NCBI RefSeq assembly: GCF_005221325.1
Contig: NZ_CP039891.1
Location: forward strand, 1 to 64,000
DNA: 64,000 nucleotides
From: Agrobacterium tumefaciens
GTDB lineage: Bacteria; Pseudomonadota; Alphaproteobacteria; Rhizobiales; Rhizobiaceae
Reading direction: 5' to 3'
The notes below the pieces were generated by a model, which had not been told where the DNA came from, made no database searches, and saw only the letters and a program-made list of their open reading frames with translations. Made by a program: the position numbers and the translations under genes. The first letter of the stretch is position 1. Every line of letters begins with the position of its first letter. This document shows, piece by piece, positions 39,526 to 58,786 of the stretch.

Positions 39526-40587
39526 TTGACCCGTCTCGACGAGCGCATCGCCCGTTCACCGGTCGGCGCAGGCTTCCTCGAGCGAACCCATTTTACCGAT
39601 GCCTGTGCCTCGCTGTGGATCGACGGCGAACTGGTCCATCTCGAAGACCTCGTCCTCCACGACGCCACTCGCGATATTCGCACACCCACCCATGAGCTGA
39701 CCATCGCCCGCGACGTTCTCCGAACCCGCCGCCGAATTGCCTCGCACGCGCCGGATTGGGCGTTATCGGCAGAGGGTATCCGAACTTTGCGACAGACGTC
39801 TGACATCAATTCCGTCGGCGCTGACGCGGTGGAGCCCGGCGGCGTCACTCGGCCCGCGGTCGCCATCGATTCGGAAGGGGAGGGGGAAGATGGGGATGTC
39901 TTGGAGGATCTGTCTGGCGTAGACTATGCCGCCATCGATGCGTTGCTGGCGCGATCGGAAGCGGCGATCGAACAGGCGAAGCGGCCCGGGCGCGCTGACT
40001 CCCGCGAACGAGACGCTCTCGTCTATGATCTCGACTGGGACGAGGATGCGCGGCTGGAGGAATGGCGCGGCGTGCTGCGCCAGGCTGAACATCTGCCGGC
40101 GGTGCTACAAGCGATCGTTGCCCTCGATGGCTGGAACGAACTTTCCGTCCTGCAGCACGCGCCCTGGCTCGGCCGGCTGTTTGCCGCCTCCATCCTGCGC
40201 CAGGCAGGTATCACGACAGGCGCCCATATCGCCGCCATCAATCTCGGACTGAAAACCATTCCCGTAGCTCGGCGCCGGCACCGTGATCGGGAGACCCGGT
40301 TGCTCGCCATTGCTCATGGGCTGATCGCGGCCGCCGAGATCGGACTGAAAGAACATGACCGGCTGGCATTGGCCCGGACACTGTTCGAGCGAAAACTGGA
40401 CGGGCGGCGGATGTCTTCAAAACTGCCGGAGCTGGTCGAACTCGTCATGGCAAAGCCGTTGGTGTCGGCAGGGATGGTCGAAAAGGCGCTCGGGGTCACG
40501 CCGCAGGCGGCGCGGCGGATCGTTTTGGAACTCGGCTTGAGGGAGATGACGGGGAGGGGGAGGTTTCGGGCGTGGGGAATAATATAG
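39526..40587 (+). CDS. DUF1612/helix-turn-helix protein (RHE_PE00001 family), probably 5'-truncated
   Basis: A 353-residue protein of a rhizobial family with a DUF1612 region and a C-terminal helix-turn-helix ([42 protein letters not shown]). The match starts abruptly at [30 protein letters not shown]. Relatives I recall have 20-30 more residues before ARLDERL. The TTG start has no ribosome site and lies at the edge of the transposon, so the 5' end was probably lost. Relatives sit next to DUF1403 and ScpB genes, which here lie 29 kb away. Function unknown. Confidence 0.72.
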
Positions 40588-40715
40588 TTCGAGAGCGCGG
40601 CAGCATTTTGATTTGGAAATCGTCGTGAAGGCAAGCTGGCATCATCCTAGATGTTTTCCACTGATCAGCGTCTGGAAGCCATTGCGGCTGGCATGGGTGG
40701 GCTTATATTAACGCA

Positions 40716-43700
40716 ATGAAAGCGAAGGGTACGGAAGACAAAACTGGAATAACTCCGCTGCCCTCCGAGTACATGCGGAAGCGGCGCCCGCATCTTTTCT
40801 CGGACACATTTGCCAGCGTGGAATCAACGCTGACAAAAGAGGTACTCTCCTATCACCTCTCTACGATGACCAGCCGCAATGGCGAGACGACGTTTGAACA
40901 TTTCGCTAGGAAACTTGCCGAAGCCGAGCTTTGCCCAAACCTGGTTCCCAACACGGGGCCGACAGGTGGCGGCGATGCCAAGGTCGACACCGAGACCTAT
41001 CCGGTAAGCGTTGAAGTGGCGTTACGCTGGTATCATGGCGAGCAGGCGGCAGCGAAGGAAAGATGGGCCTTTGCGATCAGCGCCAAAAAAGCCTGGACCG
41101 GCAAGGCGCGCAGTGATGTCGCGAGCATTGTCGGCACGAAGCGTGATTACAAGCGAATTTATTTCATCACCAACCAGCCGGCACGCGCTAAGACCCGGGC
41201 AGACATCGAAGACAGCCTCTCTGTAAAATATAGTATTCCGGTGCGTGTTCTCGATCTCAACTGGATACTGGAAAAGGTCTTCGACAACGGGCGACTTTCC
41301 CTTGCTGTCAAAGCCCTCGGCCTGTCCTCCGAGTATGAGCGACAGGTTCCGACACCCGGACCAAGGGACTATGAACGAGCCCGCGATCTCCAAGCGCTCG
41401 ACGGCCAGATTTCGGACGCATCCCGCTACAGCGGCACGCCTCATCTGCTGGCGGAAGATTGTCTTGAAGGAGCGCTGACGGCCCGCGGCCTAGGAAAGCC
41501 CCGCGTTGAGGTCGATGCCCGTTTCATGCAGGCCCGCCGCGCAGCCATCGCCTCCGGCAGCAAGGCACTTGAGTTCCGTGTCGTCTACAACTGGGCCTGG
41601 ACCGTCTATTTCTGGTTCGACGACTTTCTCGCGCTCTCCAGTCTCTTCGGCGAGGCTCTGGAACTTATCGCAGATAATGAAGACGCAGATATCGTTGAGA
41701 AGCTGGGCAATCTGTGGTCGCTGCTGCGAATGTCTGTCGCGGCGGAAAAGGTCGGCCCGGAGTTTGCAAGGCTTGACGAGCGCGGCAACGCCTTGCGAAG
41801 CAGACTGCAACTCATAGCCGACATTGATGCCCGGCCGAATAACGCGCTGCAGGCAAGATCTGCCCTTCTCTTCGTCGAGCTTGTCGATCGGCGGCACGAT
41901 AATCCCGAGCTTGGCTTCGATGACATCTGGCGCAGCTTCATCAAACTAATCGAGGATTCTCGGGGCCTCGGGACCTTTCCTTTCGAGCCCGTCACCGATG
42001 CCCTGACCGAGTTCGGAGCCTTTATCGAAAGCTCCGCTTACGACGACCTCGTTGAGCACGTCGCGGATGCTCTCGCCGAACGCCGTCGTGAAGGAGAAAG
42101 CGCGGTCGTCAATGTCCAGAGAGCAGAGCAGAAGCTGGAGCACGGAAAGCCGTACGAGGCGATCCGCTGGTTCGGTCGAACGATCGACGGGCTGGTGAAG
42201 AAGGAGTACGAATACGAACTCTTCAAGACATTGGCAGGCTTAGCTCAAGCCTATGATATGGCCGGCCTGCCCTGGGCGGCACGCTCCAGTGCGATGTCAG
42301 TGGTCAGCCATCAGCTCGGACAGAACCGTACAACCAACGGCTCCGTCTCCGGCATCAGCGCTGCAATGGTGAACGCGCTCTTCACCTTCGAGATCCAGCT
42401 TGGCCGCGTACCGCAGGCCGTTGCCTTCCATATGCTGGAAATGAACATCCGCTATTCCTGCGCCCGGGATGACGAGGAGCGTACGGAAGTAAACAAGTAT
42501 CGTTATTCCAACGCGATGAAGTTGGGTGCACTGATCCTCAATACGCCTGCGGAAGCTCTCAGAGAGCTCGAACGTCTCCACGATTGCCTGCACCACCTCG
42601 ATCTGACGGAAGCCGGTTTCACGACACTGTTTCTCCTGGGGCAGTGGGACGTGCTGCGCGACGAAAAGTGGATCCTTTCGGAGACGTCGGAGGACAAGGT
42701 TGAGACGATCATGCTCGACATCTGGGCGCAGGGCGAGGCGGCGAGGGTCGCACCAACCGCAATGATCAACGCCGGCGATCGAAGCTCCCTCACTTGCCGG
42801 GTCATCGGCGCGGAACTGGTTTTCGACGCAGTGTCCAAAATGACCTCGATTTCGATCGCCGAAGCTCTACTCGGCGTCGTCGAAAGTTTCGTCGCCACAA
42901 GCCTGAACGCAAAAGTCCTGCCGGCATGCGAACGTCTGGTGATACGCATTGATCCGGTTCCGACGCATGTCGGTCCGCCGGTGCTCGAGTTTGTCGAGGA
43001 AGGCGGAATTACCGTCGGGCGTATCGCTCACGAGGAGAATTTTGGGACCGCATCGAAGGCCAGCCTGATCGCCTTTAGGACATTTTGCAGGGACGCGATC
43101 GCGCATATCATCGGCCGAATGGTGATCATGCCTGATGAAACGCATCTTCAAACGCTGGAAAAAGAAAACGTGTTCGGCCGGGCGCTGCTGTTTTCCAATG
43201 TGCCGATGATGACAGAGAACATTTTCGGCGATCACGCGCCTTTGCGCATGACAGACCACGACCGCCCAGAGTTCAAGACCTATCCGCTGCTGCGTGAGCA
43301 ACCCTGGAAACCTCAAGGAAAAGTCGAAGCTCCGACGCCGCCACGGTTTGGCGACGGCGAACCGCCGCCAGGTATGTTCGACGAAGATAAGATGACACAC
43401 CGCGACTATGGGGTACTGTCGCCGATCGACATACCGAAGTGGAACGCCGCACGCTGGAACGGCTCTGTCTTCATCACCGCGCCGCCCGAATACAACATGT
43501 TTCCAATCCTTGGGCTTGCCTTTGCTGACAGACAGGCAGCGCTTGCGATTTTCGAAGGCTTTCATAGCCGCTATGGCGAGATGGACGCCAAGGGAGCGAT
43601 CCGCGTCGCCATCATTCGCGGAGTTTCTCGTAAGAAGCCGCACTCGTATGCGGTTTCAGTCGGTCCAAGCCTGGACCTCGGTCGAGGCGGTCCCGGAACC

Positions 43701-44030
43701 GTATTTGCGTACGTTGCACGCTACAATCGCATGTACCCGTCGAATTCTGACAATCTCGACAGGTTCCTGACGGAGTACCATCGTCTCGGAACAGCTCAGC
43801 TTGCGCCATTTCATCTTCCGACCTTTCAGGATGCGCCGGCGCCGCTTGGACGCCAGATAACCTTGAAGGAAATCGTCGTCCGCCAGGCGTGGCAGATCGG
43901 CGAAAACGATCCCGACATTTCAAGCCTCGATGAGGACGTAGACCCATACATCCCAGACGGCATTAAGGATGCACCGGTTCTACGAGCTATCGAAAAACTG
44001 AAGCGGCTCCGGCAGAACTCACAACGATAG
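40716..44030 (+). CDS. Large protein with N-terminal Mrr-like nuclease domain and helical repeats
   Basis: A 1104-residue protein. Residues 55-230 look like a PD-(D/E)xK restriction-endonuclease fold: TFEHFARKLAEAELCPNL, GPTGGGDAKVD with the candidate catalytic Asp87, and AFAISAKKAW with the candidate Lys124, then DVASIVGTKRDYKRIYFIT and VRVLDLNWILEKV. The rest is long and helical, consistent with TPR-like repeats (e.g. AEQKLEHGKPYEAIRWFGRTIDGL), ending in a mixed region from about 860. I do not recognise the full architecture. Large nuclease-repeat proteins of this sort are common in antiphage loci, so defence is likely but unproven. Confidence 0.6.
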   Translation: MKAKGTEDKTGITPLPSEYMRKRRPHLFSDTFASVESTLTKEVLSYHLSTMTSRNGETTFEHFARKLAEAELCPNLVPNTGPTGGGDAKVDTETYPVSVEVALRWYHGEQAAAKERWAFAISAKKAWTGKARSDVASIVGTKRDYKRIYFITNQPARAKTRADIEDSLSVKYSIPVRVLDLNWILEKVFDNGRLSLAVKALGLSSEYERQVPTPGPRDYERARDLQALDGQISDASRYSGTPHLLAEDCLEGALTARGLGKPRVEVDARFMQARRAAIASGSKALEFRVVYNWAWTVYFWFDDFLALSSLFGEALELIADNEDADIVEKLGNLWSLLRMSVAAEKVGPEFARLDERGNALRSRLQLIADIDARPNNALQARSALLFVELVDRRHDNPELGFDDIWRSFIKLIEDSRGLGTFPFEPVTDALTEFGAFIESSAYDDLVEHVADALAERRREGESAVVNVQRAEQKLEHGKPYEAIRWFGRTIDGLVKKEYEYELFKTLAGLAQAYDMAGLPWAARSSAMSVVSHQLGQNRTTNGSVSGISAAMVNALFTFEIQLGRVPQAVAFHMLEMNIRYSCARDDEERTEVNKYRYSNAMKLGALILNTPAEALRELERLHDCLHHLDLTEAGFTTLFLLGQWDVLRDEKWILSETSEDKVETIMLDIWAQGEAARVAPTAMINAGDRSSLTCRVIGAELVFDAVSKMTSISIAEALLGVVESFVATSLNAKVLPACERLVIRIDPVPTHVGPPVLEFVEEGGITVGRIAHEENFGTASKASLIAFRTFCRDAIAHIIGRMVIMPDETHLQTLEKENVFGRALLFSNVPMMTENIFGDHAPLRMTDHDRPEFKTYPLLREQPWKPQGKVEAPTPPRFGDGEPPPGMFDEDKMTHRDYGVLSPIDIPKWNAARWNGSVFITAPPEYNMFPILGLAFADRQAALAIFEGFHSRYGEMDAKGAIRVAIIRGVSRKKPHSYAVSVGPSLDLGRGGPGTVFAYVARYNRMYPSNSDNLDRFLTEYHRLGTAQLAPFHLPTFQDAPAPLGRQITLKEIVVRQAWQIGENDPDISSLDEDVDPYIPDGIKDAPVLRAIEKLKRLRQNSQR

Positions 44031-44076
44031 TGCTGACTTTGACCGAAGCCCTGAGGCTCGCAGAAGAAGTGTTACT

Positions 44077-44331
44077 ATGGACAATAGCGGCCTGACACCG
44101 CACGAGGTCTTCGAGATCCGCTTTGGCGTGGTCCAATCCTTCAACATCGACGATCGGCAGGAGCTGCATCGCCTGTTCTCGGCCAAGGTCTGTGAGGCCT
44201 ACGGACTTGTGCGCTACAGCGGCAGATTCCGGAAGATACCGAAGCTGGTAGTTCGTCGGGGCGACGACGTGACATCCGACACGCCGAAACGCTCACCTGG
44301 AAACCGGCCGAAGCCTCCAAGCATGAAGTGA
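44077..44331 (+). CDS. Small hypothetical protein
   Basis: An 84-residue protein between two larger genes of the same strand, 46 bp after the nuclease-repeat gene and 7 bp before the next. The N-terminus reads LTPHEVFEIRFGVVQSFNID; the C-terminus is basic and Pro-rich. A purine-rich AGAAGAAG stretch precedes the ATG. Tight spacing supports a three-gene operon. No family recognised. Confidence 0.55.
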   Translation: MDNSGLTPHEVFEIRFGVVQSFNIDDRQELHRLFSAKVCEAYGLVRYSGRFRKIPKLVVRRGDDVTSDTPKRSPGNRPKPPSMK

Positions 44332-44338
44332 GAGCGGC

Positions 44339-45289
44339 ATGTTCGAACTGATCAACCTTCTCGAAACCGTGTACCGGACCATCTCGGCGGATCTCGAAAC
44401 ATGGTTCAAGGGCTTTCCCGAGGGTCTGGCGTGGAACGTCTTTTCCGATTACTGCATTGGAGATCCGAACAAGGCCAATGACACCTTTGCTTTCGCAATA
44501 GTTCTCAATCACGACACGCAGTCGAACATCGAGGAATACATCGCGGCGGTAGCGCCTAGCGACATCAAAGGATCTCGGTCGTCGTCGGACGGCCTCATCG
44601 ATTATCTGAGCTGCCCTGTCGTCTTCAGCGTCAGCTACCTGATCGGGAAGAAGTCGAAGCTGCTTCGTGACTACATGACCGACGACAACATCCGTGGCGC
44701 TCTTCAGGACATGCGGGATGTCGTTTCCCAACTAGCGGCCATGATCCCCCAGAAGGCTGATCATTACCGGGCGGTGGACAAGCGGCTGGCGAGCTTTCAG
44801 ACCGAGATGAAAAAGCGCTCGCCAAATTCCAATCTGGCTCGACAGATTCTTCTCTGTTCAGCATTTGCATCGATTGTTTGTCGGCATCTGGCAGTTAAAA
44901 AGAAGCCCAAATTCGTCCGCTGGATCAGCGACCGGGATGCTATGTTCGACAAGTACGACAAAGTGGCCTTCGACCTCGCCTTCTTGTATTTCCATCTTCA
45001 TCGGATGATAAACGGTCAGGATGCTCTCGAGCCGGAGTTTTATTTCGGGCTGCCTGGATGGGACGGAAAGAACGAATACGCGGAGTTCATTCGGGTTGCC
45101 GACTACCTCGCTGGCACGTTAGCTGACATCAAGCTACCTGAGATGACGTTTTCGCATGCGAAGTTTGAGCCAGTCTTTCGGAACCTCTTCGTCAACGGGC
45201 AGAACGCTGCCCTCGTCGAAGTCCTCGCCCGAGACGGCGGAGGGGTTACCGCACGTCGCCTCGTCCCGACCGCGCCGAACATCCTGTAA
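44339..45289 (+). CDS. Hypothetical protein, third gene of the nuclease-repeat operon
   Basis: A 316-residue soluble protein, ATG 7 bp after the previous stop with a GAGAG ribosome site. It is mostly helical, without signal peptide or clear catalytic motif. Notable stretches are YRTISADLETWFKGFPEGLAWNVFSDYCI (about 12-40) and DLAFLYFHLHRMINGQDALEPEFYF (about 214-238). Function unknown. As the last gene of a probable defence operon it could be a regulator or an antitoxin-like partner. Confidence 0.6.
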   Translation: MFELINLLETVYRTISADLETWFKGFPEGLAWNVFSDYCIGDPNKANDTFAFAIVLNHDTQSNIEEYIAAVAPSDIKGSRSSSDGLIDYLSCPVVFSVSYLIGKKSKLLRDYMTDDNIRGALQDMRDVVSQLAAMIPQKADHYRAVDKRLASFQTEMKKRSPNSNLARQILLCSAFASIVCRHLAVKKKPKFVRWISDRDAMFDKYDKVAFDLAFLYFHLHRMINGQDALEPEFYFGLPGWDGKNEYAEFIRVADYLAGTLADIKLPEMTFSHAKFEPVFRNLFVNGQNAALVEVLARDGGGVTARRLVPTAPNIL

Positions 45290-45396
45290 ACGAAAAGGCG
45301 GCAGGCGGTACGGCGGACTGTTTTGGAGCTCGGTTTGAAAGCTGACCCGCAGCGGAGGTTTCGGACGGAGGGAACTTTATGGACGCCTGCCCTAGA

Positions 45397-46518
45397 CTAG
45401 AGCTGACCTACATCTTCATAGTTTGCAAGTGGTGAAAGACCGAGCGCATAGAGCAATTCTCTTGGTGCCACGTAATTAATACCCGTGACGCCGTTGGCAC
45501 GCGTGAAACGGTCGATCAAATGGAAAGCTTGATCATGCTCGGCATTAATTGTCTCGGGCTGCCAGAGTTTCTGATAAATATAGCGGGATGCGAAGCCAGC
45601 GATCACATCCGGGGTTTGAATGCCCAGCGATTCCTTGGAGTTTTGAAACGTCAATCTCGGCGAAGACTGGAAGCTGTAGTCGGCAGTTCGTAGCTTCACA
45701 CGCGAAAGGTCGTCTCGTAGACTTTCGGCGAGTGCCTTGTTCACCTCAATGATCTTGTCAAAATGGACCTGCTCGTCGTGAACGAATGTTACATCAGCGA
45801 TGTCGCCGTTGAAGTGGCGATTAATGCGGCCATATATTGTCGTGAACGATGAGATGTTGGGTAAGAGCCAGATCGTCCCATCCCGCTTGCTACGATCAGG
45901 GATTGGAAGGACACTTCGGACAGCTTCGTACGGATGCAGTTTCTCAAAGAGCTTTAAACTGGCTCGCGTCGAGCGCTCGATTCCAGCCGCGATATCGCGA
46001 TCCCGTTGGGAGCGATGGCTCCACCAGATCAACCGCTGAAAGACCCTGCGACAATCTGGACGGTTTTGCTTTTGGCAAGCTTTCGCATAGAGCGGGCCAA
46101 GGTCATCTGGGGCATGCAGAGCGATGTAATCTGCCATCGTATTTTTTACAAACAGCGCACCGCGTGATGGCTCGGTTCCCAAAAGATGCAATGTAACGAG
46201 CCGCTCGACGATATTTGCCATAACCAGATAGTGCTTGTCGACAAGTTCGATGAAAACGGGCCATTCTCGCGAGTGCAAGAACCGAGCAAGATCTGATACG
46301 AACTTCGGCTTCGCTTTAGTTTGCGTCGATTTCAGTTCAGTTCCGTGTAACTTGTGCAAGGACTTGAGCCGTTCGACTTCGTGGGCAAGTGCATTGATAT
46401 CGTCGATTCCGATGCACGCCAGGGAGAACATGCGTTGGCCGCCGAAGGAAGGGTGTGCCCCGACTTTGCAAAGGTCTCCAGTGTTGCCACTTTCATCCAG
46501 GTAAAAGTGCTTCGTCAC
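45397..46518 (-). CDS. DUF3800 family protein, RNase H-like fold
   Basis: A 373-residue DUF3800 protein. I start at GTG 46518, whose GTGA overlaps the phosphatase stop by 4 bp and places KHFYLDESGNTG at the very N-terminus, as in the family; an ATG at 46557 gives 13 more residues. YLDESGNTG carries the conserved Asp-Glu pair of an RNase H-like metal site. Later acidic residues (VTFVHDEQVHFDKI, about 260-273; IQTPDVIAGFASR, about 321-333) fit the rest of the core. DUF3800 proteins recur in defence islands, probably as nucleases. This is the last gene of a four-gene operon. Confidence 0.82.
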   Translation of the reverse strand: MTKHFYLDESGNTGDLCKVGAHPSFGGQRMFSLACIGIDDINALAHEVERLKSLHKLHGTELKSTQTKAKPKFVSDLARFLHSREWPVFIELVDKHYLVMANIVERLVTLHLLGTEPSRGALFVKNTMADYIALHAPDDLGPLYAKACQKQNRPDCRRVFQRLIWWSHRSQRDRDIAAGIERSTRASLKLFEKLHPYEAVRSVLPIPDRSKRDGTIWLLPNISSFTTIYGRINRHFNGDIADVTFVHDEQVHFDKIIEVNKALAESLRDDLSRVKLRTADYSFQSSPRLTFQNSKESLGIQTPDVIAGFASRYIYQKLWQPETINAEHDQAFHLIDRFTRANGVTGINYVAPRELLYALGLSPLANYEDVGQL

Positions 46519-47312
46519 GGATCGATCTGCCCATTGGTAAATGGGGGCTGAGTGCACCTGGCGACAATTGCTGAAATATTGTCCTCCCCGCCAGCACGTA
46601 GGGCGCTGTCTATGAGCGTCATAGCATCCGCGGTGCCAGATCGTCCGATGCTCGCGATCTCGTCCGACGAGAGGAAGTCTGTCACGCCATCAGAGCAGAG
46701 GATCAGAGACCAGTCGCCGGCCGGTGGACTGCTACGATGGATGTGCGGTCTGACACGCGTCTGGAGCGACATCCCACCAAGGGCCTGGGTAATCGCACCT
46801 TTGCGGCGCGGCGCTGTCGACGAACTGGGCGGAACATCGTCATGAGTGGCTTGGCGAAGACCGTTCTCATCGATTACGTAGCCGCGGCTGTCACCGACGT
46901 TGATGAACGTCAACGATTGTGCAGTGACAACCGCGAGAACGATTGTCGTTCCCATTCCCAACAGATCAGGAGTTTCTAACATCCGATGATGCAGGCCGCG
47001 GCTGATTGAGTCCAGCAGTTCCGACACCGAGGTATCGTCACCAAAGTCCACGTCGTCGCAATTAGCCGATATTTGCTCAACAGCGTAGCGGCTCGCCACC
47101 TCACCGGCCTTGTGTCCGCCTAAGCCGTCTGCAATTGCGAGAACGATAGCGTCAGATGCCGTAACCAACTCGATCGCCAACTGGTCGAAATCGCCACCTC
47201 CTATGCGATGATCGACAAGAAAGCTATCTTCGTTGCTATTACGGGCATAACCCTTGTGGGTCGCGGCGGATATGGACACTTTTGCGATATCAGACGGCAA
47301 CTTGCACTCCAT
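46515..47312 (-). CDS. PP2C-type Ser/Thr protein phosphatase
   Basis: A 265-residue PPM/PP2C phosphatase. Metal-site motifs are intact: RNSNEDSF (about 24-31), AIADGLGGHKAGEVAS (about 59-74), GMGTTIVLAVV, INVGDSRGYVIDENGL and LILCSDGVTDFLSSDEI, and GGEDNISAIVAR near the C-terminus. It should remove phosphates placed by a Ser/Thr kinase; the kinase domain encoded three genes upstream in the same operon is the obvious partner. It overlaps the preceding gene by 23 bp and the next by 4 bp. Confidence 0.92.
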   Translation of the reverse strand: MECKLPSDIAKVSISAATHKGYARNSNEDSFLVDHRIGGGDFDQLAIELVTASDAIVLAIADGLGGHKAGEVASRYAVEQISANCDDVDFGDDTSVSELLDSISRGLHHRMLETPDLLGMGTTIVLAVVTAQSLTFINVGDSRGYVIDENGLRQATHDDVPPSSSTAPRRKGAITQALGGMSLQTRVRPHIHRSSPPAGDWSLILCSDGVTDFLSSDEIASIGRSGTADAMTLIDSALRAGGEDNISAIVARCTQPPFTNGQIDP

Positions 47313-48762
47313 TCCGCAGCTTTTGACGCACTAGCGCTACAATATCGGTATCGGTCGTCACATAGGCTGTCTGAATGCGAAAATGAGGTCTACGGCCGGC
47401 AGGTTTTACAATCGGCCCGGCCGCGATGATCGCAAGCTTTCGATCTTTCACCACGATAGATAGATTGTGAAGCTCCGATCCACGCTCTGCCAGCGTGAGC
47501 CGGCGATTGACGTTCGCAAGCGACCAAAGCTGTACACCCGGCTCGAATGTTCCCTTTTCGCCAGTCGGTATCGAGTCGATCGGGTCATTTGTCATGATTT
47601 CAACCGTGGCGCGCTCAGCCAGTTTTCCGAGCTGGCTGACGACTTGTCGAGACATGCCTTCGTGTTCGACCGCGTCGATGCTGACAATCAACTCACTTTC
47701 CGTGTGCTCGAGTGCGTCTTTAAACAGGAATCCTAGCTCCGAGGGGCTCACTGATCGAAGTGGCAGTTCGTCAAGCTGTGTAGTTGAGGTCGCAATCTGT
47801 CGGTCAAGATCTTCGACTGTTCGAAGCTGATGACTTTTGAGTTTGTCACGGCTGCGGCGCTTGCGCTCGTGCATCTCAACGAGCTCAATTCGCTCCTGGG
47901 TGAGTTGTCTCAGCATGGACTTAACAGCCTCTGCTTGGTCGTCGGCGATTTTCGACCACATGTTGTCACCAATGAAAGCTTTGATGCGACCAGCATCCTC
48001 GGACCAACTCCCCTTGATAAAACCAGCCTTTTTTAATCCGCCGGTTCTGGAAAACTCGACTTCGTGGCGTTCGCTCAGCTTGTCATCGACAACAAGCCCC
48101 AATTCGAGATCACCAGTGAGGCGATTGCGGAATAGGAGGCCTGTGGTCGGCCGAAACATCATCTGGTGACGCAGTACGCGACGTAAGCCGAGGATCTGCT
48201 TCTGGAACTCTTTGCCCCCGATCCTTCTAACCGCCTGTCCAAGAGTATTGAGTGCCAACGTGTCTAGACCGGGAGGGTCTAAAGATGCCGCAGGCAAAAG
48301 CAAAGTGCCGTTTTGCCTTGCTTCTTTTGCACCCTCGACCTGGGCATCAATAAGTTTGACGGGTGAATGGAGAAGAAGGTCGTAGTCGAAGACCAAAGTT
48401 TCATCCTGCGGCCGGCTTTGTCCGCTTTCCAGTCGCTCCTTTCCTAGATCAGTAATGTGATACTTAGTATCTGACAGGGAATCGCTTAACTCGGTGACGA
48501 GTTGCTCGAACAGAAGACGAGTCAGGTTTTCCTCGACGTGCCTGATTGCCAGACCAAGCATGGCCGCGATCTCGACTGCTGTCGCATCCTCGATCATCAG
48601 GGACTTGAGCACGAACTCTTGAATGGTTGGCAGGTTTTGTCGCCGGAGCGTTATTGCTTCCACAGTGAGACGGAAAACGGGAAGGCCGCATTTCTTCACA
48701 TCCACCAGATCGAAGCCTGGGCGGAGACCAAACTCACGAACTGCACGCTGAGTGGACATCAT
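47290..48762 (-). CDS. Winged-helix protein with degenerate PLD-like C-terminus
   Basis: A 490-residue protein beginning at the ATG that overlaps the kinase-helicase stop by 4 bp. Residues about 40-110 form a winged helix (VEIAAMLGLAIRHVEENLTRLLFEQL to YHITDLGKERL). A coiled-coil stretch lies at about 280-340. The C-terminal part has ESELIVSIDAVEHEG and ELHNLSIVVKDRKLAIIAAG (about 430-449). The latter aligns with a phospholipase-D HKD box but has Leu for the Lys and a shifted Asp. If it is a PLD-fold protein, it may be catalytically altered. It is comparable to the PLD partner (MkoB) of Mokosh. Confidence 0.6.
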   Translation of the reverse strand: MMSTQRAVREFGLRPGFDLVDVKKCGLPVFRLTVEAITLRRQNLPTIQEFVLKSLMIEDATAVEIAAMLGLAIRHVEENLTRLLFEQLVTELSDSLSDTKYHITDLGKERLESGQSRPQDETLVFDYDLLLHSPVKLIDAQVEGAKEARQNGTLLLPAASLDPPGLDTLALNTLGQAVRRIGGKEFQKQILGLRRVLRHQMMFRPTTGLLFRNRLTGDLELGLVVDDKLSERHEVEFSRTGGLKKAGFIKGSWSEDAGRIKAFIGDNMWSKIADDQAEAVKSMLRQLTQERIELVEMHERKRRSRDKLKSHQLRTVEDLDRQIATSTTQLDELPLRSVSPSELGFLFKDALEHTESELIVSIDAVEHEGMSRQVVSQLGKLAERATVEIMTNDPIDSIPTGEKGTFEPGVQLWSLANVNRRLTLAERGSELHNLSIVVKDRKLAIIAAGPIVKPAGRRPHFRIQTAYVTTDTDIVALVRQKLRNGVQVAV

Positions 48763-51700
48763 TGCAGTGGCCCCAAATGGCACTCGCCGGGATGAGCCTC
48801 TACCCACTCTATCACTTTCCGGAAGGGGTTCGGGGCCTTGGCGGTTTGGCAGAACAAATGATCGCCGACGATGATCAGCGCCGATTTCGCACGCGACAAT
48901 GCCACGTTCAGCCGCGGTTTTTCTCGAAGGAAGCCGAACTGTTTCCGAAGATTTGATCGAACGACAGAGTAGATGCAGACGTCCGCTTGTTTACCCTGGA
49001 AGGCGTCAACAGTGTTGCAGACAATGCTGAGATTAGGCCAATCTCCGGCGTATTTGCGCGTCATCAGGTTCAGCCGTCCGACCTGACGAGAATAGCCGGC
49101 GATGACGGCAACGGTAATCTGGGTGCAATTTTGCTCAGTCGTCGCTTGGAGGTCATCAAGGATTCGTTTGATCCACTGTGCTTCAAGCGCGTTATCGAAA
49201 GTGCTCGCATGACGCTGCTCTTCACGCCTCTTTTCTGCTGACGTTGTGTACCAAGTCACGGGGGCGGGCAGCTTCCCTGATAGATCCAGTCCATGCGATT
49301 CGATCGGGCTTTTGAGTTTGCCGTCGTAAAAGCAGTGGCTAACGAGCTCGCCGATAGGCGCCACCATCCGGTGCTGGACGCGCATCTCCGCCCGGCTTGC
49401 GGCTGGAAGAGCTGCAACTCCCTTCAGAAAGCGATCCAAGATTGTCGGGCGAATATCCTCTTCCTCATCAAACTGCTCGAGCAACTCGTCTCCGAAATCC
49501 TCGAAAAACGGCGGAAGTTGCTCTGGATCGCCGACGACGATCCACTTCTTGCTCTTCGACATCGGAATTAGTATCTCGGTAGCGGTCGCCTTGGAGGCCT
49601 CGTCAACGATGCACAAGTCGAACTGGACATCCTCAATACCCCGAACGCCCGCGACGCCAACGCATGTGCCCGCGATCACGCGAGCATCATTCACGACTGC
49701 AGCGTTGAAATCACCTGTCTTCCCGACCTTCAGCAACCAGCCTTCAAGGAGCTTGAGCCGGTCTTTGCACGCCTCTATAGCTGGCGAACCCTGAAGGTAG
49801 AGGTCCTGCCATTCCCTGAGCTCCTCGGGATCGCGGATGCCTGCGATGTCCGGTCCCATATCAACCGAAGATCGAAGCTGGTCGCGGATGGTGCGTTCTT
49901 CAGTACGCAACGCTCGCCTTGTATTCTTGAGGAGCGTGATCTCGTCGCCCAGAACAACGGTCTTTTCTTCGAGCTCATGATCGATCTCGTGGCGGCGATG
50001 ACGTCCTTCCGAAACTTCTTCAACCCTATCAATTAGCTGCTCAGCATCTTCGAGTCGGAGCTCAACCTCCTGGCGCCGCTCGATAGTCTGGGCGAGCCTC
50101 TCGACGAGCATGCCAAGCTGGACAAGGTTACGATCGACGCCCTTGGCAACCGCCCATTCAGTCAGGTTTTGTTCGGCTTTTGCTCTCACTTGCTCCGCCC
50201 AGGAATTTACCTTTTCTTCGAGAAGGAGGCGCTTCGAGAACTCGCTGATCCTCTCGTCGTCCGGCCTCCCGATCCGAACAATCTCTTCGCCGTCGCCAAC
50301 CAATCCGGCGATTCGTTCAATAGCCTCGTCAAGGGCCGTGTGGGTTTGCGAGGAAAGCAAGATCCGTTTTCCAGGATTCATAGCTAGCCATCGAACGACG
50401 ATTTCAGAAATGAGATCTGTTTTGCCCGTGCCTGGCGGACCGGCGATAGCCAGAACTTCGTTCGTCCCGAGAGCCTGCTTCAAGACGGCAAGTTTTTCTC
50501 CCTCCAGCTTTGATTCCGACAAGTGTTTCTGATCGACAGCGCTCGGCGGCCTGGCTTGCGACGGATCAAGTAGAATGGCCTTCAACCGTTCATTTGCGGC
50601 TCGACCATACATGATCCCATCCACCGCGTTGTTTTGATTGGCTAGGGAACGCTCCGCTGCAACCGTGTTCAAAATCAACTCGCCCTTGCGCGGGATAAGA
50701 TCGGCAACGCCACTCTGAACCTCAAAAACGACCTGGTCTAGGACCACCTTCCGCACAGTGCCGAAAACATGGCGGCCACCAGCTCGAACGAGCCGCTCCT
50801 CCCCCACACCGTCTGCGGATGCGGCGCTGTCGAGGACGAAGGTGACCTTGTTTCCTTCGATTTTGCGGCTGGTGAAATGCATAACTGAGGAACGCTCGAT
50901 CTCGAAGCGGACCCGGTCACGCAGGTAGCCCTTCCACGCTTTGAATATCCGCTCATTTCGTGCAGCCTGCCGCTCCTGGCTTAGGCTGTTCTCATGATCG
51001 GCTACACGTTGCCAGATCTCCAACAGTATGTCCGCCGCGACGATTGGATCTCTGGCAGGGGTGAATGAGAATTGAAGCGGCAGTCGCAAGGCGTGCTCCC
51101 GCTTCGAAGCTGCGGTTGCCACGTCCAACTCGCGGCAGTCGTAGATCTCGATGGTGTCCTTGCCCCGCCCCGTGATGCGACCGCGAAATCGCCAAGACGA
51201 CCCGAAAATGTCGAGGCTTGATTTGGATGGATCTTGATCACCATATCGATGCAATGCCAAACCGTGAACATCGCTGAGCTCTTGCAGGATAAAGCTCCGG
51301 ACGGCAGAACCATCATCCAACGATATCTCTTCGGCCAGACGTTCCTCCGCGATCGACGTCAGATCTAGAAAGCAAGGATACTTATAGCCAATATCCACGG
51401 CTCGGCGAGCTTCCACAGCCTCGATCTCGAGCCTCAGCTGCTTTGCATCCAGTGGCCGTTTGCGCCGATCCTCGGAGAGGGATCTTTCAAGAATATCTCT
51501 GATCCCTTCCGGAACCGCCGCCTCATGCAGGGCGACACCCAGATCGACATCGCCTTCAATTGTACGTCCAACGAGGCAATAGACGGCAACCGCCGCGAAG
51601 CCGAAACAATCGCGTCCGTAGGTATGGACGCCATCGTCGGCTTCTAGGGGTGAGAAACCGGGTGTTCGCGCATCAACGAAAGTCTTGCCGGCGACTGGCA

Positions 51701-52223
51701 TCCACGGATCGCGGCCAAAGACTTTCGATATCCCGTAATCGGTGATCTTCGGCACTTCCTTTCCGGTCATCATGATGTTCCGGGGGTTCAGATCGCGATG
51801 GGCGATCTGATGGCGTGTCTGCGCAAACACAAGCGCGTCCAGAACCGGCTTACCGATGAGTGTGTAGAATCCATTCCACGGGATCGCGCCTTTCCGTTGA
51901 ATGTAAGCCTCAATTGTTTCCTCTAGCCACTCGAGCGCGAGATACCATCGGCCCTCAAGATCCTGATCGACTTTAACGAGAGAAACGATGTTCGGATGCT
52001 CAAGTTTCCCGAGAGCGTCTGCTTCGCGCTGGAATGATGTCTTCTGGCGCTCAGGGTCGCCTTGGAGCAGCATACGTTTGATTGCCACGTGTTCTTGGCT
52101 CAGCACATCGTATGCCTTCTGGATCGACCCCATGCCGCCCTCGCGCAATTCATTGGCAAGGACAAAGCGGTTGCCGAGTATGGTTGGGGAGTCAACAGAT
52201 TGAATAGTCACCGCATCTTCCAA
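48759..52223 (-). CDS. Ser/Thr kinase fused to SF1 (UPF1-like) helicase
   Basis: A 1154-residue fusion. The kinase (about 15-270) has glycine loop REGGMGSIQKAY, lysine in VAIKR (49), catalytic HRDLNPRNIM (142-151, Asn for the usual Lys) and DYG for DFG (162-164). The helicase (about 575-1140) has Walker A GPPGTGKT (595-602), DEAS (874-877), GDPEQLPP (898-905), QHRM, VDAFQGKQAD and LNVALSRAK. A coiled-coil insertion lies at about 700-790. Kinase plus COG1112-like helicase is, as I recall, the architecture of MkoA of type I Mokosh antiphage systems. First gene of a four-gene coupled operon. Confidence 0.88.
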   Translation of the reverse strand: MEDAVTIQSVDSPTILGNRFVLANELREGGMGSIQKAYDVLSQEHVAIKRMLLQGDPERQKTSFQREADALGKLEHPNIVSLVKVDQDLEGRWYLALEWLEETIEAYIQRKGAIPWNGFYTLIGKPVLDALVFAQTRHQIAHRDLNPRNIMMTGKEVPKITDYGISKVFGRDPWMPVAGKTFVDARTPGFSPLEADDGVHTYGRDCFGFAAVAVYCLVGRTIEGDVDLGVALHEAAVPEGIRDILERSLSEDRRKRPLDAKQLRLEIEAVEARRAVDIGYKYPCFLDLTSIAEERLAEEISLDDGSAVRSFILQELSDVHGLALHRYGDQDPSKSSLDIFGSSWRFRGRITGRGKDTIEIYDCRELDVATAASKREHALRLPLQFSFTPARDPIVAADILLEIWQRVADHENSLSQERQAARNERIFKAWKGYLRDRVRFEIERSSVMHFTSRKIEGNKVTFVLDSAASADGVGEERLVRAGGRHVFGTVRKVVLDQVVFEVQSGVADLIPRKGELILNTVAAERSLANQNNAVDGIMYGRAANERLKAILLDPSQARPPSAVDQKHLSESKLEGEKLAVLKQALGTNEVLAIAGPPGTGKTDLISEIVVRWLAMNPGKRILLSSQTHTALDEAIERIAGLVGDGEEIVRIGRPDDERISEFSKRLLLEEKVNSWAEQVRAKAEQNLTEWAVAKGVDRNLVQLGMLVERLAQTIERRQEVELRLEDAEQLIDRVEEVSEGRHRRHEIDHELEEKTVVLGDEITLLKNTRRALRTEERTIRDQLRSSVDMGPDIAGIRDPEELREWQDLYLQGSPAIEACKDRLKLLEGWLLKVGKTGDFNAAVVNDARVIAGTCVGVAGVRGIEDVQFDLCIVDEASKATATEILIPMSKSKKWIVVGDPEQLPPFFEDFGDELLEQFDEEEDIRPTILDRFLKGVAALPAASRAEMRVQHRMVAPIGELVSHCFYDGKLKSPIESHGLDLSGKLPAPVTWYTTSAEKRREEQRHASTFDNALEAQWIKRILDDLQATTEQNCTQITVAVIAGYSRQVGRLNLMTRKYAGDWPNLSIVCNTVDAFQGKQADVCIYSVVRSNLRKQFGFLREKPRLNVALSRAKSALIIVGDHLFCQTAKAPNPFRKVIEWVEAHPGECHLGPLQ

Positions 52224-52317
52224 AAGAAACCGAAGCCGTTACGGATGCGACCATAAGTTTTATTATTTGGAAAGCCGTAATTCATAAAATCCGAAATTAT
52301 AGCGAGGTGAGGCTAAA
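52224..52317. other. Divergent promoter region
   Basis: A 94-bp AT-rich gap (AAGTTTTATTATTTGGAAAG and TAATTCATAAAATC) separates the kinase-helicase operon from the plus-strand HEPN-type gene. Both promoters must lie here. I cannot assign boxes with confidence. Confidence 0.4.
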
Positions 52318-53004
52318 ATGAACGAGTTGCTCAAGGAAATTCCGGACCGAATTCTCAAATTAGCGAAAGGCGCTTTGTCCCAAGCGAATACTCATTTAAC
52401 CTTCGCCGATCCGGGAAACGAGCACTGGAATTTTATTTGCGTACTGAATGCCGCTCACGCCGGCGAGCTGTTCATGAAAGCAGCTATCGCGAGAGAACAT
52501 CCCCTTCTCATATTCAAAGACTTGTTCGCGTTTGACGACGGTCAGGCAGCAGAAATTGATCTCGCGAGCTTGATCAAGAAGGGGAAAACCCATGATTTTG
52601 ACAAGATTCCTCAACTGCTGTGGGCGGTAAGTGGAATTCGCATTCCGAATCGAGAGTGTTTCGAGCGATTGCGGAAGGCACGCAATGCCATTCAGCACTT
52701 TTGCGCGCCGGACGATGAGGATTTTAGGCAACTTTCCCTAGAGTTCAGTTATACGATTATCGATCCTCTCATCCAATCTACCTACGGGCTGTTCGCGATC
52801 GATTTTCACGAAGATCACAACGTGGGTTATGATTATGTCGTTGAGAAGGTTGTACGTGCTCAGCAAAAGTTCTCGATGCCAGAAGACTTTAATCTGAGTG
52901 AGGTTAGTTTGTCTGAGGCTTTGCAGGGAGCAAGCCGCGGATACAAGTCATGGATAAATTCCGAACTGACAAAAATTGGCAGGACCGATTTGCTGACGCT
53001 TTAA
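52318..53004 (+). CDS. HEPN-type hypothetical protein
   Basis: A 228-residue, mainly helical protein with a GAGG site 7 bp before the ATG. ERLRKARNAIQHFCAPDDEDF (about 116-136) contains R-N-A-I-Q-H, an R-x4-H motif as in HEPN ribonucleases. N-terminal LNAAHAGELFMKAAIAREH resembles the first HEPN helices. HEPN proteins often act as RNases in toxin-antitoxin and antiphage systems. No typical antitoxin gene (MNT) is adjacent. It is divergent from the kinase-helicase operon and may share its control region. Function is inferred from the motif only. Confidence 0.6.
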   Translation: MNELLKEIPDRILKLAKGALSQANTHLTFADPGNEHWNFICVLNAAHAGELFMKAAIAREHPLLIFKDLFAFDDGQAAEIDLASLIKKGKTHDFDKIPQLLWAVSGIRIPNRECFERLRKARNAIQHFCAPDDEDFRQLSLEFSYTIIDPLIQSTYGLFAIDFHEDHNVGYDYVVEKVVRAQQKFSMPEDFNLSEVSLSEALQGASRGYKSWINSELTKIGRTDLLTL

Positions 53005-53086
53005 TCATGTCGGTTGGTCAGACAATGATGAGCAGTGGGAAGGTACAAACGAATCGCTGTAAGTATCTGCTGCTCAGTTGTCGCAA

Positions 53087-55150
53087 TCAGGCTCTTGGTT
53101 TCGCTGAACGACGTAGGCCTGCTGCATGTAGGGTGGCGACGTTTCTGGCCCAGGCATCATTCACTAGATCCTGCCATTGGATCACCTCGATCGTTGATCC
53201 CTTAAATTCATTATCGAGGGCGCGGATACGGCCCTCTCCATTTGCCGTCGTTGACCAGCCCGCCAGCTGCTCCTTCAGGTCGCCCCTTATGTCGGCCACC
53301 ACATAGCAGTAGAAGATGCAATCCGGCGCTATGCGAACCCTCTGACGGTTGTATGTTTCGATTTCGCCATTCTTCATCTGCCTTAGGTATTTCGTGATCT
53401 GCAGTTCCACCAAATCCTCGGTCTTCTTGTATTGGGTCCGCCCAGGTCGTTTAAATTCGACAATCATCGCTTTGCGCAGTGGCTCGGACGCGTCGAATTC
53501 GTTCTCATCGTCGGATGGGTCGACCACGCCCAAGCCGTGGGCAAGGTTCCAGACTAATAGATCCGGGCGAATGTCCGTTCCACCGGACTTTAAAGTTTCC
53601 GCCAACCGCTGATCGGAAGCGAAGGAGCGTGTGAATGCCAGCCGTTCGTCAACGATCCAAAGATCATGGACGGTGGCTTCCACCTTGCTTGGGTCGCTGC
53701 CATTCATGCGCATCGGAACGATAAGTGAATGGAGGGTGCTTTCCAGATGGAAATCTTCTTCCTTTTCTCCGCGGTCTCTAATTCGTCTGATGAGGCGTTC
53801 CAATAGCTCGAGGACGAGCTTTCGGCGAACGACGTGCTGTGCCAAAGCCAGTCGCTCCGAATTTTGAACTTCCTGCGCCGCCTTGATAACCGTCTCGGCG
53901 AAGTTCTCGGAAACGCTTTGACCTTCCTCGAGGAGCTTGATCACCGTTTCAATATCTTTTTGACGAGTCTCATCGCGCCGAATTTGGTATTTTACCAAGC
54001 CTGTGGCGAATTCCTCCGGGCTTCGGGCTCCGAATGGAACACGATCGAGCTGGGTATCTTCGTCTGCAAAGTCGTAGATCGGATATCGTTGCACGAATCC
54101 CCGATAATCCTCGCGGCGCGCTTCCGAGTATTCTGCGATTTGTTCGGTCAAGAATTTCTCCTTGATGAATTCAGTGCAGAACCTGATTAGTTCCTTCACC
54201 TTGGATTCGGCCAAGTTGAAGGCCGTACGACCCTCGTTCACATGCCGATTGAGGTAGTCGCCAGTGATGCATCCGTGAAATACGAGGTCGTCATGGCCGT
54301 CGCGGCGTACGCGGTCGATCCCTAGTAGTTTATCGATCTTTCGAGGTTCGACGTTTCGGCCGTCAGCAAGGAGATGAAGCTGATGCATCCCGTCTAAGCC
54401 AGTGCTGGCTTCCGGCTTGCAGGTAAAACCAGTTATTTTGAGCGCTCCGAATTCCCTATGTTCGTCGGTGCTGGCTTCGAATGGCTCGCCAACTACCAAG
54501 CCGGACACTGCCTCTGGATAACGAGCTTCCTCTCCATCAATTTCGAGACGGACCTTCGGGCCTCTAGCCATAAGGAAATCGGCGATAAAGTGGGCGCTGA
54601 AATACCGCTTGAATAGCTCAGCGCTTGCCGGGAACTGTTTCCGGTAGTTCGCCTCTCTCAAGCCTCTGAATGAAACAACAGTCCCGGTGTTCCGAACGCG
54701 AGACAGGTGCAGCCGGTTGTCGTCCTCGCGGAGCTGTTCCCCGTTGTTTAGAAGGAATGTAAATGCGCGGTCGTGGAACTGATCTGATTCAAGGTACTTG
54801 CTCTCGACCCTAACGTCGGCGAACGAATCGAGCCAGAACAGTCTGCCGACCCCTTTACCACCACGTTCTTTCTTGAAATCAGTATCGAGCTGGCAAAAGG
54901 CCTCATATCGCTTTCTATCTAGGCCTATGCCATTATCGATAACCTCGATATTGAGCACATCCGGGTCGCGGAGGCCGCTCACGAAAATGTCCACGACACC
55001 CTGATAATCGGGATGTTTCTTCTGAATATCCTCGATTGCAAATATTGCATTGCTTACCGCTTCAAATAACGGCTGCATGGCCTGAGCGATATTGGATGGT
55101 TTGGGGAGCTTGTCGACGCGATTGATCACGTTAGGCGCAAGTGTCGGCAT
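53087..55150 (-). CDS. GHKL ATPase fused to a PD-(D/E)xK-type nuclease domain
   Basis: A 687-residue protein. The N-terminal Hsp90/MutL-type ATPase has the N-box FEAVSNAIFAIED (about 29-41), IEVIDNGIGLD (G1 box, about 68-78) and GGKGVGRLFWLDSF (about 97-110). The middle is helical. The C-terminal region has RPDLLVWN (about 535) and MIVEFKRPGR (about 570), the Asp and E-x-K of a restriction-type nuclease. The combination suggests an ATP-gated DNA-cleaving protein, a design seen in MORC-like and other defence proteins. I know no named system for it. It stands alone, convergent with the HEPN gene. Confidence 0.7.
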   Translation of the reverse strand: MPTLAPNVINRVDKLPKPSNIAQAMQPLFEAVSNAIFAIEDIQKKHPDYQGVVDIFVSGLRDPDVLNIEVIDNGIGLDRKRYEAFCQLDTDFKKERGGKGVGRLFWLDSFADVRVESKYLESDQFHDRAFTFLLNNGEQLREDDNRLHLSRVRNTGTVVSFRGLREANYRKQFPASAELFKRYFSAHFIADFLMARGPKVRLEIDGEEARYPEAVSGLVVGEPFEASTDEHREFGALKITGFTCKPEASTGLDGMHQLHLLADGRNVEPRKIDKLLGIDRVRRDGHDDLVFHGCITGDYLNRHVNEGRTAFNLAESKVKELIRFCTEFIKEKFLTEQIAEYSEARREDYRGFVQRYPIYDFADEDTQLDRVPFGARSPEEFATGLVKYQIRRDETRQKDIETVIKLLEEGQSVSENFAETVIKAAQEVQNSERLALAQHVVRRKLVLELLERLIRRIRDRGEKEEDFHLESTLHSLIVPMRMNGSDPSKVEATVHDLWIVDERLAFTRSFASDQRLAETLKSGGTDIRPDLLVWNLAHGLGVVDPSDDENEFDASEPLRKAMIVEFKRPGRTQYKKTEDLVELQITKYLRQMKNGEIETYNRQRVRIAPDCIFYCYVVADIRGDLKEQLAGWSTTANGEGRIRALDNEFKGSTIEVIQWQDLVNDAWARNVATLHAAGLRRSAKPRA

Positions 55151-55325
55151 AGATCCCCCAGGTATTTTGCACTTATTGATAGCGCAACAATTTCATGCCT
55201 TCAATCAATGTGGCGGAAGCAATTGGGCAATCGGTTCGATCGTTTTAATCAGCCTGAAGGGTTCATTCGGTTTCCTGCCGCAATAGCCACGGCGCTTGCC
55301 CGAGCGTTTTAGTGCGAGCGTCAAA

Positions 55326-55769
55326 TCATATGGCACCGATGAATTTGGTAATCGCGCCCATTAACTTCGCAATCGTGGTCAAAGTATCGGCTAGGTCTCC
55401 TGCCTCCTTTGCGGTGGCTCTGAGGCTAGCAGCCGCGGCCGCGATTTCGTCGTCCGGCGCATACAGTGCTTGTCTTGCGGCGAGACTTAGATTTGCAAGG
55501 TTGTTGTATTCGCGGCGCAGAATGTCGATCTGCCGGGAATAAGCCAAAAGCTTGTCCGGATCAGAAGTTCGCGTCCCCAGAATTGCAATGGCCTTCGCCT
55601 CCGCGACCATTCCTTCCCACGCTTCATCGTTGGAAATACTCCCGGCCGGTGCTTTTGCGAGTTCAGCGGCACGTCGGACTTTCAGTGCGCGGATCAATCT
55701 GCTTGATCTTGCCTGCTTATAATCGTCGACGGCATTCTGAAATTGGGCGAACGCTTCGGTTGTCATCAT
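55326..55769 (-). CDS. Hypothetical helical protein coupled to a lipoprotein gene
   Basis: A 147-residue Ala-rich helical protein whose start overlaps the lipoprotein gene's stop by 4 bp. Central DPDKLLAYSRQIDILRREYNNLANLSLAARQ (about 71-101) suggests a coiled coil. The C-terminal third is hydrophobic (LADTLTTIAKLMGAITKFIGAI) and could be an amphipathic or membrane helix. No signal peptide is seen. Function unknown; probably a partner of the lipoprotein. Confidence 0.6.
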   Translation of the reverse strand: MMTTEAFAQFQNAVDDYKQARSSRLIRALKVRRAAELAKAPAGSISNDEAWEGMVAEAKAIAILGTRTSDPDKLLAYSRQIDILRREYNNLANLSLAARQALYAPDDEIAAAAASLRATAKEAGDLADTLTTIAKLMGAITKFIGAI

Positions 55770-56683
55770 TTGCCCTTCTTCGCTGCTTGTACGAGGTCTG
55801 AGAGATTGCCTGTCAACGCGACAAGGGAGTCGACGTCAAAATTTGCTTTGCCAGACTGTGCGGCAAGAGCGTGGTGCGTCTTGGCAATTTGGTCAAGCAC
55901 GTTGTCATACTCAGCTGTGGCGGCGAAGGCAGCATTGGCTGCATCGACCGATGCAGCCGATTCCAAGAACTGCTCATGCAGCTGCGCCCGGCCCGCGACT
56001 TCGGAAGAGGTTGGAACAGTGGTCGAGGTACTTGACCCATTGGGGGAGGAATTTCCGCGAATGGTCGCGAGTGCAGTCTTTTGATTGAGTTTGTACTCGA
56101 TTAGAGCGATTTCGAAACTCCCGCTAATTATCGCGACGTCTTGCTTTAAGGATCGCACTACGATCTGAACGGACGGATCGGTATCGCGGATGATCTGGTT
56201 AACCCGCCGAGCGTAGCGGTCACTCAGGGCAATACCGACACCTTTGCCGGCAGCTTTGGCAACGGCTGATAGCATCGCACCCGCACCAGGAGCCACGGCT
56301 GTGCCGAGATTTGCGACAGTTTCTGCAAGCGCCGATGATGCATCCTGAAGCTTTTGAATATTTCCGTCGTCCGCGGCAGCTTTTAGCGCAGAGCCATAGT
56401 CTGCAAGAACTTTGATCTTTTTCTGCCGAAACGCGATTTCTTTCGTATTGATCAAGGACTCTGGTTCCTCGAGCAAATTGAAATCGGCTCCCTTTATATA
56501 ATTGACGGATTGTAATTCTCGTTCTGCTGCTATCGAAATAGTCCTATTCTCCGCAGCGATAGCATTGAGCGAAGAAACGCCGGACTCTACGGCGGAGCCA
56601 AAATCCGCAAGCTGCTTAGAATTAGGCAGAGATGTGCAACTCGTTAACAGTAGTATCGGCAATATAAGACTAATCCTGATCAC
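55766..56683 (-). CDS. Hypothetical lipoprotein
   Basis: A 305-residue protein with a lipoprotein signal: MIRISLILPILLLTSCTSLP, lipobox LTSC with Cys16 as the lipidation site. The mature part is Ala/Ser-rich and helical, with a Gly/Ala patch VAPGAGAMLSAVAKAAGKGVGIAL (about 131-154) that might insert in a membrane. A Ser/Thr-rich linker follows at about 208-220. No family is recognised. It forms a two-gene operon with the following helical protein. Confidence 0.7.
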   Translation of the reverse strand: MIRISLILPILLLTSCTSLPNSKQLADFGSAVESGVSSLNAIAAENRTISIAAERELQSVNYIKGADFNLLEEPESLINTKEIAFRQKKIKVLADYGSALKAAADDGNIQKLQDASSALAETVANLGTAVAPGAGAMLSAVAKAAGKGVGIALSDRYARRVNQIIRDTDPSVQIVVRSLKQDVAIISGSFEIALIEYKLNQKTALATIRGNSSPNGSSTSTTVPTSSEVAGRAQLHEQFLESAASVDAANAAFAATAEYDNVLDQIAKTHHALAAQSGKANFDVDSLVALTGNLSDLVQAAKKGK

Positions 56684-58726: not shown

Positions 58727-58786
58727 GGCAGCAATCCCCTCCGTTGCGACCGAATGCAGTTTGTCCCGGTAAGTTCCGCCCGCTCG

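Follow-up and report, generated by a model that had tools for sequence, protein, structure and literature searches.

A Mokosh type I locus of Agrobacterium tumefaciens with a PP2C phosphatase gene and a PLD-fold MkoB that lacks the nuclease residues

Background

Mokosh type I reportedly consists of two proteins, MkoA and MkoB, as defined in the 2022 work of Millman et al. The archaeal DNA-binding proteins TrmB and TrmBL2 share with MkoB a layout of a winged helix-turn-helix and a PLD-like domain, and they are not known to have a kinase, helicase, or phosphatase partner.

One account describes Mokosh as degrading viral transcripts (PMC11291487), and a table in another assigns PLD-like and NERD domains to type I (PMC10952713). 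In KKP, Ser/Thr kinases and a PP2C-type phosphatase are encoded in one operon in a defence context; the kinases are toxic and are held in check by the phosphatase, which is itself inhibited by a phage protein (PMC11341870). KKP and a synthetic-biology review were the items found in the open literature that bring a PP2C together with a kinase in anti-phage defence. No phosphatase variant is named in the titles and opening lines of the abstracts of the Mokosh papers listed from the open literature, and where Mokosh and a phosphatase do occur in the same paper, the mentions have nothing to do with each other.

Results and Discussion

A Mokosh type I core in a four-gene operon

The window, a stretch of 64,000 nucleotides of A. 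tumefaciens DNA (NZ_CP039891.1, positions 1 to 64,000), contains four overlapping open reading frames, all on the minus strand, at 45397-52223. The main features are as follows.

48759..52223, minus strand: mkoA, Ser/Thr kinase fused to an SF1 helicase (PADLOC MkoA, Pfam; RefSeq start 52211)
47290..48762, minus strand: mkoB, 490 aa, winged helix, middle region, and PLD-fold domain (PADLOC MkoB, AlphaFold2)
48412..48645, minus strand: winged helix-turn-helix of mkoB, residues 40-117
47293..47769, minus strand: C-terminal PLD-fold domain of mkoB, residues 332-490, catalytic residues lost
47443..47466, minus strand: remnant of the HxK(x4)D box of mkoB, residues 433-440, with D440 the sole kept residue (alignments)
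46515..47312, minus strand: PP2C-type Ser/Thr phosphatase, directly 3' of mkoB (Pfam PP2C_2; RefSeq start 47300)
45397..46518, minus strand: DUF3800 protein with an RNase HII-like model, an add-on of this lineage (Pfam)

The coordinates bore out the overlaps of 4, 23, and 4 bp in the preliminary description; the middle one (mkoB/PP2C) is 11 bp with the RefSeq start used on NZ_CP039900.1. This accession is the A. tumefaciens plasmid pAtCFBP5877b, a part of which the window matches almost exactly, with the four proteins 99.6-99.9% identical; the genome containing the window is 6.14 Mb. The identical four-gene order was also found on plasmids of two other species, so the arrangement is not due to chance, and the concern that homologous loci might never retain the four genes together did not materialise. 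All four genes are under purifying selection (dN/dS 0.05-0.15 against close relatives). No Rfam match was found in 40000-56000, and promoter and terminator scans performed no better than shuffles.

The suspicion that the core was Mokosh-like proved correct when the first two proteins were searched with PADLOC profiles. The first matched MkoA (PDLC03920) from end to end (E 8.6e-220, residues 14-1150) and the second matched MkoB (PDLC03922; E 1.8e-37), and mkoB lies directly after mkoA with a 4-bp overlap, which is the gene order of Mokosh type I. Genes 1 and 2 are thus the Mokosh type I pair. They share with it both gene families, their order, and an MkoB of winged helix and PLD fold. The locus differs in having an MkoB without the PLD catalytic residues, a DYG kinase, a PP2C as third gene, and a DUF3800 protein as fourth.

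Scanning a single genome from each species yielded 91 loci with a relative of MkoA, 80 of which were kept. An adjoining MkoB was present in 71 of the 80; two loci (L034 and L044) end at mkoA, and none was seen at the seven most distant MkoA loci (L080-L086). The scan loci, the window, and four plasmid records, with three duplicates left out, made up a set of 76 mkoA-mkoB loci, which span Proteobacteria, Cyanobacteria, Actinobacteria, Acidobacteria, Planctomycetes, and others. At a strict threshold (E 1e-200), the MkoA profile matched 1 of 385 genomes of the class, the window's own. One MkoA relative was seen on the viral contigs (L105).

A phosphatase as the third gene

Gene 3 matched Pfam PP2C_2 with 45.7 bits (cut-off 24) and was related to PstP in the PDB (E about 1e-22). 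The metal-binding Asp motifs of PP2C are common to all 18 aligned Mokosh PP2Cs, including that of the window. The proposed extension of the core by a phosphatase was followed up with a survey of co-occurrence, and it recurs: 18 of the 76 mkoA-mkoB loci have a PP2C gene directly 3' of mkoB and in the same orientation, although 11 of the other 58 end less than 900 bases from mkoB and cannot show its absence. Seventeen of the 18 PP2C genes overlap mkoB and the other, at L031, abuts it (first possible start taken). The phosphatase was present in all 15 loci with a DYG kinase, which make up the window's clade, and in three with a DFG kinase (L031, L033, and L036). The remark that the extension looked undescribed also holds for the phosphatase, in that no description of such a Mokosh variant was found in the open literature (subscription papers and preprints lie outside this scope).

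Retention of the PLD fold and loss of its active site in MkoB

Gene 2 had no Pfam match above its cut-off. In its AlphaFold2 model (mean pLDDT 88, pTM 0.77), the PLD fold of type I Mokosh is present, in agreement with the earlier suggestion of a PLD-like protein. The best Foldseek match to the whole layout was TrmBL2 (E 5.7e-06), with a large rmsd of 13.5 over both domains.

The features of the gene family are present in the window's MkoB, and the catalytic residues of a PLD nuclease (HxK(x4)D and the following N) are not. The replacement of Lys by Leu given in the preliminary description was misplaced by one residue; in the family alignment, Asn occupies the His position (433) and Ser the Lys position (435). 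In the alignment, H433, K435, N450, and E464 were retained in none of 14 MkoBs of the window's clade and D440 in all 14, and none of the 10 named catalytic-block columns was retained in any of them (these counts leave out L037, whose mkoB is in pieces). The HxK(x4)D motif was found in 0 of 49. The nuclease centre is gone throughout the window's clade, and the fold survives. The preliminary description understated the change in the PLD box, as the active site is lost across the clade.

Constraint on the PLD domain is relaxed but has not vanished. For pairs at 25-40% winged-helix identity, the ratio of PLD to winged-helix conservation was 1.45 among intact MkoBs (691 pairs) and 0.65 in the DYG clade (48 pairs), compared with 1.17 versus 0.80 at 40-60% and 0.99 versus 0.86 at 60-95%; the pairs are not independent, and L026, L040, and L070 (truncated or divergent) were left out. 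In other words, the domain that is best conserved in diverged intact MkoBs is the least conserved part of MkoB in the DYG clade. Its dN/dS was about 0.17 against three close relatives (winged helix 0.06-0.15) and 0.475 against a far Microvirga sequence. Such values are the mark of a pseudoenzyme, not of a dead gene.

A putative kinase-phosphatase switch

The anatomy of the locus is well supported; its mechanism is what we infer. Our preferred reading, to which we would give somewhat less than an even chance, is that the locus derives from Mokosh and acts as a kinase-phosphatase switch with a KKP-like logic, in which the pseudo-PLD protein is the partner. Defence by the window's clade is assumed from homology. 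The helicase half would sense phage nucleic acid, the kinase would be the output of defence, and the pseudo-PLD MkoB, no longer a nuclease, would be a nucleic-acid-binding scaffold, the first substrate of the kinase, or both. In uninfected cells, the PP2C would keep MkoA and MkoB dephosphorylated, and hence off. Upon infection, kinase activity would rise or the phosphatase would be blocked, host or phage proteins would be phosphorylated, and growth would stop. In the window's lineage, DUF3800 may supply an additional nucleic-acid-cutting arm.

The same logic is reported for KKP and for type VII toxin-antitoxin pairs. The window's locus shares with KKP a Ser/Thr kinase and a PP2C-type phosphatase in one operon, but KKP has two kinases and is borne by a prophage (PMC11341870), whereas the window's locus is on a plasmid and has one kinase, fused to a helicase, with a pseudo-PLD partner. 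KKP's combination of two Ser/Thr kinases and a PP2C was not found: beside the PP2C, the operon, like the genome as a whole, gives a single Pkinase match. The scaffold role suggested for MkoB is drawn by analogy with the FAM83/DUF1669 pseudo-PLDs, which anchor vertebrate CK1 kinases (PMC6008594); PLD fold matches are numerous.

Applied to the whole DYG clade, the preferred reading becomes slightly more tentative still. A nuclease defence would have been turned into a phosphorylation defence, in which the PLD pseudoenzyme anchors or regulates the kinase, the kinase is the effector, and the PP2C is the antitoxin and possibly the phage sensor. If true, prokaryotes would have their own parallel to FAM83-CK1, a single defence family would have changed its chemistry, and a named defence system would split into nuclease-bearing and nuclease-free branches. 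Since profile tools name both Mokosh branches alike, equating Mokosh with a nuclease would be unsafe for the DYG clade.

Conservation of the kinase and the helicase

MkoA contains a kinase at about residues 13-274 and an SF1 helicase at about 579-1122, with Pfam matches to Pkinase, AAA_11, and AAA_12. The kinase motifs read HRDLNPRN and DYG, as first reported. They are indeed variants, but they do not look like damage: DYG is found at every one of the clade's 15 loci, and none of the 31 aligned MkoAs departs from the catalytic Lys, the Asp and Asn of the HRD motif, or the D.G residues. The helicase motifs of the window's MkoA are likewise retained. Among the PP2C-bearing loci, mkoA is broken in some (L014, L037, and L048).

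It is possible, though unlikely, that the helicase rather than the kinase is the effector, with MkoA and a DNA- or RNA-binding MkoB blocking or remodelling phage nucleic acid without cutting it and the kinase and PP2C tuning assembly or disassembly of the complex. Within MkoA, constraint is strongest on the helicase (dN/dS 0.03-0.04 versus 0.055-0.07 for the kinase), the winged helix of MkoB is kept, and TrmBL2, the best match to the whole architecture, is an archaeal chromatin protein. By itself, however, an effector helicase does not explain a dedicated phosphatase at every one of the DYG loci.

DUF3800 as an accessory gene

Gene 4 matched DUF3800 (PF12686) over the Pfam cut-off and has a predicted RNase H-type fold, which is RNase HII-like. 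A published AlphaFold2 model of a DUF3800 also has an RNase H fold and belongs to a TPR-DUF3800 protein encoded beside Cas12a2 (PMC10910872); the window's DUF3800, unlike that one, has no CRISPR neighbour and is translationally coupled to the Mokosh operon.

A slightly less probable alternative than an effector helicase is that nucleic-acid degradation persists: MkoA would recognise phage nucleic acid, DUF3800 or a non-canonical site in MkoB would cut, and the PP2C would reset the kinase, DUF3800 having replaced the PLD nuclease. The fold of gene 4 and its conserved acidic residues are consistent with this, as are the 4-bp overlap of DUF3800 with the PP2C gene and its position after PP2C in two other species. 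However, DUF3800 was present in only 3 of the 18 PP2C-bearing loci (the contig of L012 ends too early for exclusion), its relatives at up to 57% identity lie outside Mokosh on all seven plasmids examined among the 10 listed, and no majority His was found in the MkoB domain. On the count of 3 in 18, DUF3800 was rejected as a core component, and this part of the preliminary description was not upheld. Five contig sizes (8659, 16467, 24567, 56629, and 214201) are common to the DUF3800 and MkoA/MkoB match lists, an indirect hint of more four-gene loci that was not counted.

Kinase and phosphatase content of the genomes

The preferred reading, a switch set by MkoA and the PP2C, calls attention to what else the genomes encode. 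The only Pkinase match in the window's genome (E 1e-5) is MkoA, and the single matches to PP2C_2 (E 1e-10) and to PP2C (E 1e-3) are both gene 3. Twelve other PP2C-bearing genomes were searched (that of L008 was left out), and five had exactly one Pkinase and one PP2C_2 match, or 6 of 13 with the window's. Five additional PP2Cs occur in these 12 genomes, and every one of them is either no more than about 1 kb from another kinase or in one frame with it. This gene content makes MkoA, or whatever it phosphorylates, the most likely substrate of the Mokosh PP2C. Because the operon holds the only Pkinase and PP2C_2 matches in 6 of the 13 genomes, phosphotargets could be read there against a nearly empty background.

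No PP2C is seen at 58 of the 76 Mokosh loci, so the kinase does not require a phosphatase in cis. In a search that covered 29 of these 58, PP2Cs were found elsewhere in 27 genomes, compared with 5 of the 12 PP2C-bearing genomes (beyond the Mokosh copy). Hosts that lack a phosphatase of their own may need a portable one, although phylum confounds the comparison. The same count, with the same confounding, would suit a usual brake in trans, and thus a further alternative that we consider improbable, in which the PP2C is a safety brake against kinase autoimmunity and the kinase acts by phosphorylating a single dedicated target (for example MkoB, made a repressor) rather than through general toxicity. 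Nothing direct separates such a brake from the switch that we favour, and the genomes of L038 and L043, with a PP2C neither in cis nor elsewhere, speak against it.

That the locus is a decaying Mokosh copy whose PLD site was lost by simple degeneration is very improbable: decayed mkoB fragments without mkoA do occur on Rhizobium etli pRetNXC12d, but here four open frames are kept across genera under purifying selection, and the loss of the site extends through a clade whose frames are open.

Order of events and origin of the phosphatase

Having a PP2C and having lost the PLD box do not always go together. L031, L033, and L036 have a PP2C and an intact PLD box, and the box is lost without a PP2C in cis at L030, L032, L035, L057, L063, and L068; all six of the latter genomes hold PP2Cs elsewhere (1 to 5). 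Of these loci, L030 and L032 are from Betaproteobacteria and have a DFG kinase, and they fall with the 14 DYG rows in a 16-row clade (support 100; placement within the clade, 53). From this distribution, PLD loss may have preceded PP2C gain.

The MkoA tree places L031, L033, and L036 in a clade of their own (100) that is separate from the 14 DYG rows long enough for inclusion. A single origin of the PP2C by descent with MkoA was rejected (AU test, p 0.00017; reduced tree with 37 of 67 rows, LG+G4, the group being tested after the first tree was seen). The 18 Mokosh PP2Cs and that of L088 grouped in a single clade (95/82) to the exclusion of 26 other bacterial PP2Cs, a small sample chosen with the Mokosh PP2C profile; L115 and L117 (long), L106 (score below the threshold), and L107, L120, and L126 (no profile match) were left out. 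The 18 alone as one clade were not rejected (AU test, p 0.118), and in the best tree L088 sits within their group. The PP2Cs being one group and the MkoAs falling in two clades, it is as a unit that the PP2C family has been gained by, swapped between, or lost from Mokosh lineages. The PP2C of L088 follows a cluster of DUF499, DUF3780, DUF1156 methylase, and PLD helicase genes, each of which matches a PADLOC family.

Among 397 genomes of the order, eight had a PP2C match at E 1e-15, and only G000 and G194 had one better than 1e-20; no Mokosh was found near the strong match in G194. In phages, 19 records had PP2C relatives, and the 10 matches listed were at 27-31% identity.

Variation among Mokosh loci

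The PLD box of MkoB is lost in the clade of the window, and it was likewise missing in six loci with no PP2C gene in cis (L030, L032, L035, L057, L063, and L068), which span the Betaproteobacteria and two groups of Actinobacteria. Such repeated loss of the box suggests that Mokosh can do without nuclease activity.

In three other loci the PLD box of MkoB was intact, PP2C was absent, and a different third gene, with a product of 261-269 amino acids, was found downstream of mkoB:

L029:12929-13717, third gene after mkoB
L038:12951-13760, third gene after mkoB
L041:12929-13714, third gene after mkoB

The three products were related to one another, and two of the three had a sub-threshold match to HEPN_Swt1. 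This gene is perhaps another Mokosh accessory, with an RNase-like product.

A PP2C from the Mokosh-linked clade was also found in a genome from the same order as the window, where it follows a gene cluster:

L135:750-11682, DUF499, DUF3780, DUF1156 methylase, and PLD helicase, then PP2C

Neither MkoA nor MkoB was found at this locus. In Rhizobium etli plasmid pRetNXC12d, mkoB remained only in pieces (L006:7949-8760, about 78% identity), and mkoA was not detected.

Genomic neighborhood of the window operon

Three genes that make up an uncharacterized cluster are convergent with the Mokosh operon, and their products had no Pfam matches:

40716-45289, + strand, genes for proteins of 1104, 84, and 316 amino acids

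Just upstream of mkoA (52318-55150) were a 228-amino acid gene on the plus strand, with a weak PADLOC match to PDC-S64 (E = 1.5e-7), and the gene for a 687-amino acid protein on the minus strand, with a sub-threshold Pfam match to GHKL ATPases. Further features were taken from the annotation of the near-identical plasmid pAtCFBP5877b (NZ_CP039900.1):

about 57953-64000, SOS-response peptidase, LigD-type ligase, and imuA, polymerase Y, error-prone polymerase cassette
35992-39407, Tn7/Tn5053-type transposition set (Mu-type transposase, TniB, TniQ)

According to the same annotation, this transposition set separates arsenic and fluoride resistance genes from the Mokosh locus.
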